Assembly (NCBI GenBank): GCA_029210625.1
Contig: JARGFU010000020.1
Coordinates: forward strand, 15,548 to 79,547
Direction of reading: 5' to 3'
Length of the DNA stretch: 64,000 bases
Source of the DNA: Deltaproteobacteria bacterium
Lineage (GTDB): Bacteria; Myxococcota; Myxococcia; SLRQ01
Part shown: in pieces, positions 46,375-51,832 of the stretch
Layout: every line of letters starts with the position of its first letter
Position numbering within the stretch: the stretch's first letter is position 1
The notes under the pieces: generated by a model
Told to the model about the DNA's origin: nothing
What the model saw: the letters and a program-made list of their open reading frames with translations, nothing else
Databases searched by the model: none
Position numbers and translations under genes: made by a program

Positions 46375-47205
46375 CTACTTCTTGCCGCGGCGCTTGACGA
46401 TGTACTTGCCGGTCCGCTTGTTCCGACGAGTCTTGTAACCCTTGGTCGGCATACCCCAGGGGGACACGGGATGGGGGTTGCCCTGCCCGGCCCGACCCTC
46501 ACCACCACCGTGGGGGTGATCGACGGGGTTCATCACGCAACCGCGGACGTGGGGACGACGGCCGCTCCAGCGAGTCCGGCCGGCCTTACCGATCCGCACC
46601 AGGTTGTGGAGCGGATTGGAGAGCTGACCGATGCTGGCCCGGCAGGTGAGGAGCACCCGGCGAACCTCGTGAGAGGGCAGGCGCACCATGGCGTAGCTGC
46701 CCTCCTTGGCGAGGAGCTGGGCGACGCCGCCGGCGGTCCGGACGATCTGACCGCCCTTGCCCGGCTTGAGCTCGATGTTGTGGATCTGGGTGCCCAGGGG
46801 GATGTTCCGCAGGGGCAGGCAGTTCCCGGGCTTCACGTCCGCGCGATCGGCCGAGAGGACGGCCTGACCGACCTCGAGGCCCACCGGAGCGAGCATGTAG
46901 CGCTTCTCGCCGTCGGCGTAGACGACGAGGGCGATCCGGGTCGAGCGGTTCGGATCGTACTCGATCGTCGCGACCCGCCCGGGGACATCGAGCTTGTTCC
47001 GCTTGAAGTCGATGATCCGGTAGCGCTGCTTGTGGCCGCCACCGCGGTGACGGGTGGTGATCCGGCCCCGCTGGTTGCGGCCGGCCTTGCGCTTCTTGGC
47101 AACGGTGAGGCTCTTCTCCGGCTTGTCCCCCGAGAGGGTGGAGAAGTCCTGACTGGTCATCAGGCGACGCCCCGGCGTCCTCGGCTTGTACTTTTTCAGT
47201 GCCAT
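46375..47205 (-). CDS. rplB: 50S ribosomal protein L2
   Basis: 276 residues. [20 protein letters not shown] start, [17 protein letters not shown], and the C-terminal [13 protein letters not shown] loop with the conserved His near the peptidyl transferase centre. Confidence 0.99.
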
Positions 47206-47229: not shown

Positions 47230-47532
47230 CTAGGCCGGGGTGCCGCCCTCGATGAGATCGATCTCGTCGCCCTCACGCAGCGTGACGATGGCCTTCTTCC
47301 AGGTGGCCCGCTGACCGAAGTGGAAACCCATCCGCTTCGGCTTGCCGCGCACCACCAGAGTACGAACGCCGGTCACCTTCACATCGAAGAGCTTCTCGAT
47401 GGCGTCCTTGATCTGGATCTTGTTGGCCCGGCGGTCGACCTCGAACGCGTAGGCGTTCTCGGTCTCGCGCTGGAGGTCGTGCTTCTCGGTGAGAAGCGGA
47501 CGCTTCACGATCTGGTAGGTGTCGAGCCTCAC
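47230..47532 (-). CDS. rplW: 50S ribosomal protein L23
   Basis: 100 residues. [33 protein letters not shown] and [20 protein letters not shown]. Tunnel-exit docking protein. Overlaps rplD by 4 bp. Confidence 0.98.
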
Positions 47533-48149
47533 TGGAGTGCCTCCTCGATCGCCTTCGCCGAAGCGGTGGTCAGGACCAGGGCCTCGTGCCGCAGGATGTC
47601 GCGGACGTTCATGCCCTCGGGGGGCAGGACCTGGAAGGAGGAGAGGTTCCGCACCGACTTCTGCAGGTTGTCGTTCTCTCGCCCCTCGACGATGAGCGCC
47701 TTGCGAAGGCCCAGGCCGCCGAGCATCTGCGCCGCGCTCTTGGTCTTGATCGCCTCGAGCTCGAGGTTGTCGATGATGAAGAGCATCCCCTCCTTGGCGC
47801 GGAGAGAGACCGCGGAGCGGAGGGCGCCCTTACGCACCTTCTTCGGCAGGGCATAGCCGTAGCCGTGAGGCTTCGGCCGCATGGCCCGGCCGCCACCGAC
47901 CCACTGGGAGGCGCGGGTCGAACCCTGACGGGCGCGGCCGGTCCCCTTCTGGCGGTAGGGCTTGGCGCCGCCGCCGCTCACCTTGGAGCGGTTCTTCACG
48001 GAATGCGTCCCCTGCCGGGCCTTGGCGTGCTGCCACTTGATCACCTCGTAGAAGAGGTTCTCGTTCACCCGGGCGGCGAAGACGGCGTCATCCAGCTCGA
48101 TGGTGGACACCTTCTTACCGGACTGGTCTTTCACGTCGAACGTTGCCAT
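47529..48149 (-). CDS. rplD: 50S ribosomal protein L4
   Basis: 206 residues. Family marks [38 protein letters not shown] and [11 protein letters not shown]-type block. Tunnel constriction protein; in E. coli it represses the S10 operon. It starts only 18 bp after rpsJ, so rplC (L3), which normally lies here, is missing. Confidence 0.98.
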
Positions 48150-48167
48150 CGCTGTGTACCTCGCTCG

Positions 48168-48470
48168 CTACTTGATCTCGACGTCGACGCCCGCGGCCAG
48201 GTCCAGCTTCATCAACGCGTCGAGCGTCTGCTGGGTAGGCTCATGGATGTCGAGGAGCCGCTTGTGAGTCCGGATCTCGAACTGTTCACGACTCTTCTTG
48301 TCGATGTGAGGAGACCGAAGAACGGTCCAGCGGTTGATCTTGGTCGGCAGGGGGATGGGACCAGCCACCCTCGCTCCCGTCTTCTTGGCCGTCTCTGCGA
48401 TCTCGCCGGCCGACTGGTCGAGCAGCTTGTGATCGTAGGCCTTGAGCCGAATTCGAATCTTCTGTGCCAT
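48168..48470 (-). CDS. rpsJ: 30S ribosomal protein S10
   Basis: 100 residues. [40 protein letters not shown] and RTHKRLLDI. Head protein, also the Nus-antitermination factor NusE. Follows tuf by 49 bp and precedes rplD. Confidence 0.98.
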
Positions 48471-48519: not shown

Positions 48520-49710
48520 CTACTCGAGGATCTCGGTCACCACACCGGCGCCGACCGTCCGACCGCCCTCGCGAATCGCGAAGCGGAGTTCCTTCTCCAT
48601 CGCGATCGGCGTGATCAGCTGGACGTCCATCTGGACGTTGTCGCCCGGCATGACCATCTCGGTGCCCTCGGGGAGGGTCACCATGCCGGTCACGTCCGTG
48701 GTGCGGAAGTAGAACTGCGGACGATAGCCGTTGAAGAAGGGAGTGTGACGACCACCCTCCTCCTTCGCCAGCACGTAGACCTTGGCCTTGAACTTCGTGT
48801 GCGGGGTGATGGAGCCGGGCTTGGCCAGCACCTGGCCACGCTCGACCTCGTCCCGCTTCACGCCACGCAGCAGCGCGCCGATGTTGTCGCCCGCCTGGCC
48901 CTCGTCGAGGAGCTTGCGGAACATCTCGACGCCGGTGCAGGTCGTCTTGCTGGTCTCCTTGATGCCGACGATCTCGATCTCGTCGCCGACGTGGATCGCG
49001 CCACGCTCGATACGGCCGGTCACGACCGTGCCGCGGCCCGAGATGGAGAAGACGTCCTCGATGGGCATCAGGAAGGGCTTGTCGACGTCGCGCTCGGGGG
49101 TCGGCACGTAGGTGTCGACGGCCTCCATCAGCGCGTCGATCGAGCCGGAGGCGATCTCGCTGTCCTCGCCGTCGAGGGCCTTGAGGGCCGAGCCGCGCAC
49201 GATCGGGATGTCGTCGCCCGGGAACTCGTAGTTGGAGAGCAGCTCGCGGACCTCGAGCTCGACGAGGTCGAGGAGCTCGGGATCGTCGACCATGTCGACC
49301 TTGTTCATGTAGACCACGATCCGAGGCACGCCGACCTGACGGGCCAGCAGGATGTGCTCACGGGTCTGGGGCATCGGGCCGTCGGCCGCGGACACGACCA
49401 GGATCGCGCCGTCCATCTGCGCGGCGCCGGTGATCATGTTCTTCACGTAGTCGGCGTGCCCCGGGCAGTCGACGTGCGCGTAGTGCCGCGACTCGGTCTG
49501 GTACTCGACGTGGGCGGTGGCGATGGTGATGCCGCGCGCCTTCTCCTCGGGAGCCTTGTCGATCTGATCGAAGGCGGTGAACTCGGCGCCGCCCTTGGTC
49601 GCCAGCACCTTGGTGATCGCGGCGGTCAGGGTGGTCTTGCCGTGATCCACGTGACCGATCGTTCCGATGTTCACGTGCGGCTTGTTGCGCTCGAACTTCT
49701 GCTTGGCCAT
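48520..49710 (-). CDS. tuf: Elongation factor Tu
   Basis: 396 residues from ATG 49710 ([19 protein letters not shown]). G1 GHVDHGKT, G3 DCPGHADY, G4 NKVD, followed by domains 2 and 3. Carries aminoacyl-tRNA to the ribosome. A frame extension upstream to 49788 is not EF-Tu. Only one tuf in the window. Confidence 0.99.
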
Positions 49711-49750: not shown

Positions 49751-51832
49751 TTAGCCTGTCCCGCGGACTCGCGCAATGATCTCGTCACTCACGCTCTTGG
49801 GGACTTCTTCGTAGTGGTCGAACTGCATGGTGTAGGTGGCCCGCCCCTGGGTGGTGGACCGCAGGTCGGTGGCGTACCCGAACATGGCCGCCAGGGGCAC
49901 CATGGCCCGGATCACCTGGACGGAACCCCGGGGATCCATGCCCTGGATCCGGCCCCGCCGGGAGTTGATGTCGCCGATGACGTCGCCCATGAACTCCTCG
50001 GGGGTGACGACCTCGGTGGCCATCACGGGCTCGAGGAGCACCGGGCGGGCCTTCTGGGTGCCGGCCTTGAAACCCATGGATCCCGCGACCTTGAAGGCCA
50101 TCTCGGAGGAGTCCACGTCGTGGTAGCTGCCGTCGTAGAGCTCGACCTCGACGTCGACCATGGGGTAGCCCGCGAGGGGGCCGGCCTGCAGGGCCTCTTC
50201 GACGCCCTTCTTGACCGCCGGGATGTACTCCTTGGGGACCACGCCGCCGACGATGCCGTTGACGAACTCGAAGCCCTCGCCGGGCTGGCGGGGCCGGAGG
50301 CGGAGCCGGACGTGCCCGTACTGGCCCCGGCCGCCGGACTGGCGGACGAAGCGGCCCTCGGACTCGACCTCGCGGGTGATCGTCTCGCGGTAGGCCACCT
50401 GGGGCTTACCCACGTTGGCGCCGACCTTGAACTCGCGCTGGAGGCGGTCGACGATGATCTCGAGGTGGAGCTCGCCCATGCCGGCGATCAGGGTCTGGCC
50501 GGTCTCCTCGTCCGTGCGGACGCGGAAGGAGGGATCCTCGACGGCCAGCTTCTGCAGGGCGACGCCGAGCTTCTCCTGGTCGGCCTTGGTCTTCGGCTCG
50601 ATCGCGATGTCGATGACCGGATCCGGGAACTCCATCTTCTCGAGGACGACCGGGTCGTTGGCCAGCGAGAGGGTGTCGCCAGTGGTGGTGCCCCGGAGGC
50701 CCACGGCGGCGACGATGTCGCCGGCGTAGCACTGATCGAGGTCTTCCCGCTTGTTGGCGTGCATGCGCAGGAGGCGCCCGAGGCGCTCCTTGCGGCCCTT
50801 CACGGAGTTGTACACGTGGCTGCCGGCCTCGAGCGTGCCCGAGTAGACCCGCAGGAAGGTCAGCTGACCGACGTAGGGGTCGGTCATGATCTTGAACGCC
50901 AGCGCCGCGAAGGGGGCGTCGTCGTCGGCGGGCCGCTCGACCTCCTCGCCCTTCTCGTTCAGGCCCCGGATGGCGGGGACCTCGACCGGCGAGGGGAGGT
51001 ACTCCACGACGGCGTCGAGGAGGGGCTGCACGCCCTTGTTCTTGAAGGCGGTGCCGCAGAGGACCGGCACGATCTTGATGGCCACGGTGGCCTTGTGGAG
51101 CGCCTTCTTGATCTGCGCCGTGTCGAGCTCCTTGCCCTCGAGGTAGTCCTCGAGGAGGTGATCGTCGAACTCGGCGACCGACTCGAGGAGCCGCTCACGG
51201 CCCATGTCGGCCTCGTCCTGGAGGTCCGCCGGGATGTCCTCGACGTGGTACTTCGCCCCGAGGGACTCGTCGTCGAAGAGGACGGCCTTCATCTCCACGA
51301 GGTCGATGTGGCCCCGGTACTTGTCCTCGGACCCGATCGGCAGCTGGATCGGCACCGGGTGAGCGTCGAGGCGCTTCTCGATCTCGGAGACGACCCGATC
51401 GAACTCGGCGCCGATGCGGTCCATCTTGTTGACGAAGGCGATCCGCGGAACCTTGTACCGGTCGGCCTGGCGCCAGACGGTCTCGGACTGGGGCTCCACG
51501 CCGCCGACGGCGCAGAAGACGGCCACGGCACCATCGAGGATCTTCAGGGAGCGCTCCACCTCGATGGTGAAGTCGACGTGCCCCGGGGTGTCGATGATGT
51601 TGATCCGGTGGTCTTTCCAGAAGCAGGTGGTCGCAGCGGAGGTGATCGTGATGCCACGCTCCTGCTCCTGCTCCATCCAGTCCATGGTGGCCGTGCCCTC
51701 ATGGACCTCACCGATCTTATGCGAGACGCCGGTGTAGTACAGGATACGCTCAGTCGTCGTCGTCTTCCCGGCATCGATGTGGGCCATGATGCCGATGTTG
51801 CGAACTCTCTGGAGTGGGTACAGGCGGGGCAC
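49751..51832 (-). CDS. fusA: Elongation factor G
   Basis: 693 residues. G1 [16 protein letters not shown]3 DTPGHVDF and G4 NKMDR. Domains II-V follow with [14 protein letters not shown]-type block in domain IV and the [16 protein letters not shown] end. Translocase. 40 bp before tuf. Confidence 0.99.

Follow-up and report, generated by a model that had tools for sequence, protein, structure and literature searches.

The window, i.e. the whole stretch of 64,000 nucleotides that was analysed (part of contig C20), carries on its minus strand the genes rpoB, rpoC, rpsL, rpsG, fusA, tuf, rpsJ, rplD, rplW and rplB, followed in the same direction by rpsS, rplV, rpsC, rplP and onward (Table 1). The canonical S10 operon has the order rpsJ-rplC-rplD-rplW-rplB-rpsS-rplV-rpsC-rplP-rpmC-rpsQ, and here the other genes examined retain their usual order and strand: rpsJ, rplD, rplW, rplB and the later genes are contiguous, in order and on one strand. 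The gene for ribosomal protein L3, rplC, is absent from the cluster, as the original prediction had claimed, since reading of the open reading frames (ORFs) revealed a gap of 18 bp between rpsJ and rplD, which offers space for barely more than the ribosome-binding region of rplD and is too short to hold a gene remnant. No L3-like ORF was found at this junction among the ORFs of the window, and neither these ORFs nor a search of the whole genome yielded a second or partial rplC near it. An autoregulatory RNA leader upstream of rpsJ, the L4 leader, is known from gammaproteobacteria; in the S10 region analysed here (30000-64000), no Rfam RNA leader family was matched at its gathering score, and the lineage may lie outside the Rfam models.

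Table 1. Genes at and around the rpsJ–rplD junction (feature, position in the window, strand, remark).
rpsJ–rplD junction, site of rplC in the canonical S10 operon	48150..48167	-	without rplC remnant
rpsJ (S10), 100 aa, intact	48168..48470	-	S10 87-90% identical to other Myxococcia
rplD (L4), 206 aa, intact	47529..48149	-	Pfam PF00573, E 2.2e-64
rplW (L23)	47230..47532	-	syntenic in relatives
rplB (L2)	46375..47205	-	syntenic in relatives
tuf (EF-Tu), upstream neighbour of rpsJ	48520..49710	-	start taken at [16 protein letters not shown]
fusA (EF-G)	49751..51832	-	syntenic in relatives

A Pfam profile search identified one Ribosomal_L3 gene in the entire genome, located on a different contig (C9, at approximately 204.6-205.2 kb), and the expectation of an L3 gene at another genomic site was thus borne out by one intact copy. 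The rplC ORF (L001:1390-2055) encodes 221 aa, and its product scores 268.7 bits against the NCBIfam profile L3_bact (TIGR03625; cut-off 142.9), with residues 4-207 of 221 aligned to positions 1-202 of 202 of the profile. It is a full-length bacterial uL3 by this curated cut-off, and approximately 50% identical to L3 of Bacillota. The relocated gene presumably provides the ribosome with its only L3, a normal one, and incorporation of its product into the 50S subunit would be expected because this is the sole L3 gene detected in the genome. The next gene begins 3 nt past the rplC stop codon, and for this reason rplC probably leads an operon in this genome.

The same bare junction was present in all 45 relatives in which it was read, and hence in 46 of 46 genomes, comprising this genome, 13 other Myxococcia, 17 other Myxococcota, 12 members of the GH18 phylum, Prado148 and two Spirochaetota MAGs. 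In the relatives, rpsJ and rplD are adjacent on the same strand, mostly 5-65 bp apart, with no L3 gene between them. Searches for L3 and for L4 each identified the gene in 57 of 58 relatives, and the two genes were never adjacent. Both lie on one contig in 27 relatives, and single-contig genomes are among the rows compared; by their coordinates, the two genes share a strand and are separated by 36-208 kb in 26 of these 27, the exception being G047, in which they are 1.2 Mb apart on opposite strands. Neither S10 nor L4 was encoded beside L3 in any of 38 genomes of other Myxococcota families (flanks of usually 3-4 kb on each side, less at contig ends) or at any of 30 loci of the GH18 phylum (flanks of only approximately 1.2 kb), and the MAG GH18 (L077), a match from the general collection, likewise carries L3 without S10 or L4. 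A 311-kb single-contig Myxococcota genome of 87% completeness (G092; L166, L286) has kept both the free-standing rplC and the bare junction.

Using the same method, the canonical order was recovered at 28 of 30 Spirochaetota loci and at all fetched loci of Bacillota, Chloroflexota, Calditrichota and Poribacteria. In total, 105 of 109 outgroup-type loci are canonical, in a sampling that does not extend to Bdellovibrionota and Desulfobacterota, the nearest sister phyla; of the remaining four loci, one is that of GH18 and three belong to two Spirochaetota MAGs. The locus tags of rplC and rplD are consecutive in Nitrospina gracilis, consistent with canonical order (PMC3578206).

A tree of 148 L3 rows places all free-standing L3s in a single clade (ultrafast bootstrap 99, SH-aLRT 95), inside which the Myxococcia and Prado148 (Myxococcaceae, Myxococcota) constitute a clade of their own (99/92). 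Because Prado148 falls inside family f2 of the relatives in this tree, that family is taken to be Myxococcaceae and the class Myxococcia. The combined S10 and L4 tree unites the Myxococcota and GH18 rows (90/80). The free-standing L3s also differ from bacterial uL3 (TIGR03625) in the loop that precedes the GSIG motif, which reads [TS]HGTHE..RH in most of them (also given as HGTHE..R(H/N)), with His in 95 and Glu in 93 of 96 rows of the alignment and with variants such as SSTAHEHHRH in some Myxococcia. The corresponding operonic loops are HGS-(R/K)YHRR in Bacillota and mostly HGS-xFHRx in Spirochaetota, and the His-Glu pair was absent from the operonic L3s sampled, a sample that falls short of all bacteria. 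Equally long loops occur elsewhere, e.g. in actinobacterial L3, by which the distinctive trait of the loop is judged to be the His-Glu pair and not its length. In the columns after GSIG, G[AS]IGQRKTPG is the prevailing sequence of the Myxococcia proteins, and it places Arg-Lys at two positions that we take to be Asn-Gln in E. coli L3, the Gln presumably being the PrmB methylation site. One L3 (L135:3306-3926, G061) carries a C-terminal extension of approximately 80 residues, unlike the other L3s read.

The L3 of Myxococcia also diverges faster relative to L4 and L2. From pairwise distances, the L3/L4 divergence ratio was highest in Myxococcia (1.4), followed by the other free-standing groups (0.9), Spirochaetota (0.84) and a mostly-Bacillota set (0.70), and the L3/L2 ratios were 2.2, about 1.7 and 1.17, the first being that of Myxococcia. 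This suggests a mild acceleration of L3, strongest in Myxococcia, within the constraints that saturation and uneven sampling place on such a comparison.

The two Spirochaetota MAGs, G147 (MAG B62_G9) and G179, are placed inside Spirochaetota by the S10 and L4 tree (98/90), and in both rpsJ adjoins rplD without an intervening rplC (S10 loci L195 and L262). Their L3s (L106/L223 and L221, respectively) are of the His-Glu type and fall inside the free-standing clade. Both are flanked by the same genes on both sides, among them an apparent dCMP deaminase gene that adjoins L3, and judging by these shared flanks two separate chance contaminations are ruled out. When all Spirochaetota L3s were held together in an AU test, that topology was not rejected (p = 0.26), and lateral displacement of L3 in these MAGs is therefore unproven by the tree alone, though plausible. 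A broader proposal, to which we give even odds, is that the free-standing L3 with its His-Glu loop represents a distinct lineage able to spread between phyla, and that the lineage of G147 and G179 acquired an L3 of the Myxococcota/GH18 group and lost its operonic rplC. This would constitute horizontal displacement of a core ribosomal protein that adjoins the peptidyl transferase centre, enabled by a self-contained gene outside the S10 operon.

Upstream of the relocated rplC, promoter-like sites are conserved by clade. In an alignment of 30 Myxococcia upstream regions, the Myxococcaceae share a TTGACG-N16-TATCTT/TACATT block, and a family with genomes of 4-5 Mb carries TTGAC(A/T)-N17-TAGAA(A/G) or TACAAG; the corresponding site of the present genome, TTGACC-N18-TAGAAG, lies 151 nt ahead of the start codon of rplC. 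A sigma70-like site within 300 nt upstream of rplC was detected at 37 of 56 Myxococcia loci (66%, against 2.5% of control windows; some genomes are counted twice and many are closely related), at 12 of 36 loci of other Myxococcota (33%, control 6.2%) and at 24 of 30 loci of the GH18 group (80%, control 3.6%), compared with 38% against a control of 24% at canonical loci. These consensus matches are consistent with transcription of the relocated rplC from a putative promoter of its own, which, together with the distance of the gene, sets the arrangement apart from the canonical operon. No Rfam RNA leader was matched at rplC.

The genes that accompany the relocated rplC are linked to it clade by clade, and no universal neighbour was found. 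Many Myxococcota have, downstream of rplC and on its strand, genes for OMP_myx_plus outer-membrane barrels and a GltC-like TPR protein; in others, spanning several families, and at 11 of 30 GH18-group loci, the gene after rplC encodes an RlmE-like 23S rRNA methyltransferase, while in one family rplC follows an enolase gene (named from its sequence). The barrels and the TPR protein recall Myxococcus gliding cluster G2, which consists of gltC, gltA, gltB and gltK (PMC3169522). However, two of the TPR proteins score 229 and 211.3 bits against a GltC (NF033756) cut-off of 450, which makes them relatives and leaves identity with GltC unsupported; the module beside rplC (L112:929-4153 and L124:7436-11187) is apparently related to the gliding machinery rather than being glt itself. 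The RlmE-like gene lies directly downstream of rplC at L133, L135, L139, L142, L146, L229 and L241, among others. RlmE is the 23S rRNA (U2552) methyltransferase, and L3 and the modified nucleotide are both situated near the peptidyl transferase centre. At a further set of loci (L149, L152, L155, L164, L165 and L168), belonging to one group of families that includes those with genomes of 1.3-1.8 Mb, rplC is directly followed by a conserved protein of 96-128 aa, one member of which was searched against Pfam and NCBIfam and gave no match.

We consider a single ancient relocation of rplC, followed by vertical inheritance under a dedicated promoter, to be the best reading of these data (probability approximately 0.86). 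The gene would have moved once to a different place in the chromosome, in an ancestor shared by Myxococcota and the GH18 group, so that only a short junction now separates rpsJ from rplD, and would have been inherited vertically since; we infer both the direction and the date of this move. Having left the S10 transcript, rplC would be expressed from its own sigma70-like promoter, located approximately 60-220 nt upstream of the start codon, and may lead an operon with the beta-barrel and GltC-like TPR genes or with the RlmE-type gene. Promoter strength and gene dosage would then serve to match L3 supply to that of the other ribosomal proteins. The L3 loci share no single universal neighbourhood that would mark an ancestral landing site. 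Of the original reading, the absence of rplC from the cluster and its presence elsewhere in the genome stand, and the analysis adds that the arrangement is, on this evidence, no peculiarity of one genome but of ancient date in the phylum and in a related group. The further suggestion that the stoichiometry control of the S10 operon is broken is unsupported: with no known RNA leader matched by Rfam in the S10 region, such a control is itself only hypothetical here, and what the sequence displays is a promoter-like site belonging to rplC.

Alternatively, a foreign L3 may have arrived at another site in the ancestor of Myxococcota, after which the native operonic rplC was deleted. The free-standing L3s do stand apart as a clade and by their characteristic loop, the L3 of this genome is at least as similar to Bacillota and actinobacterial L3s (approximately 50% identity) as to those of its class-mates, and the two Spirochaetota MAGs resemble such a displacement; however, the L3 tree offers no donor group, the clade being nested in no sampled phylum, and the high divergence of L3 within the class is explicable by its faster relative rate, such that we regard this origin as unlikely. 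Several independent relocations across the phylum, as might be suggested by the differing rplC neighbours among families, are very improbable in view of the single L3 clade, the common loop signature and the lack of an operonic copy among the genomes examined, and Myxococcia have the same outer-membrane barrel and GltC-like genes beside rplC as other Myxococcota families. Finally, although this genome is a draft of 64 contigs, there is next to no chance that misassembly or faulty binning removed rplC from the contig, given the intact copy elsewhere in the same genome and the presence of the same junction in single-contig genomes and many independent assemblies. An assembly deletion at the junction, or relatives with rplC in this position, had been named at the outset as counting against the relocation; the former is ruled out by the intact distant copy and by the identical arrangement in all 45 relatives read, and none of the relatives examined carries rplC here.

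The gene, the protein and the cluster are already known, while the relocation is apparently undescribed: no account of it in Myxococcota was found in the open-licence literature, to which the search was confined (subscription journals were outside its scope), even though any annotated myxobacterial genome should show it. Few gene orders of bacteria are as well conserved as that of the S10 cluster, from which rplC is routinely used as a marker, and L3 is an essential ribosomal protein. A phylum that keeps the cluster without L3 thus represents a natural experiment, which indicates that L3 need not be co-transcribed with S10 and L4 and renders testable how L3 dosage is matched to that of the other ribosomal proteins without a shared operon. 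In practical terms, blocks of ribosomal-protein markers taken from one contig will miss L3 in Myxococcota, and the bare rpsJ–rplD junction together with the HGTHE loop provides a simple shared character for placing Myxococcota and related MAGs.
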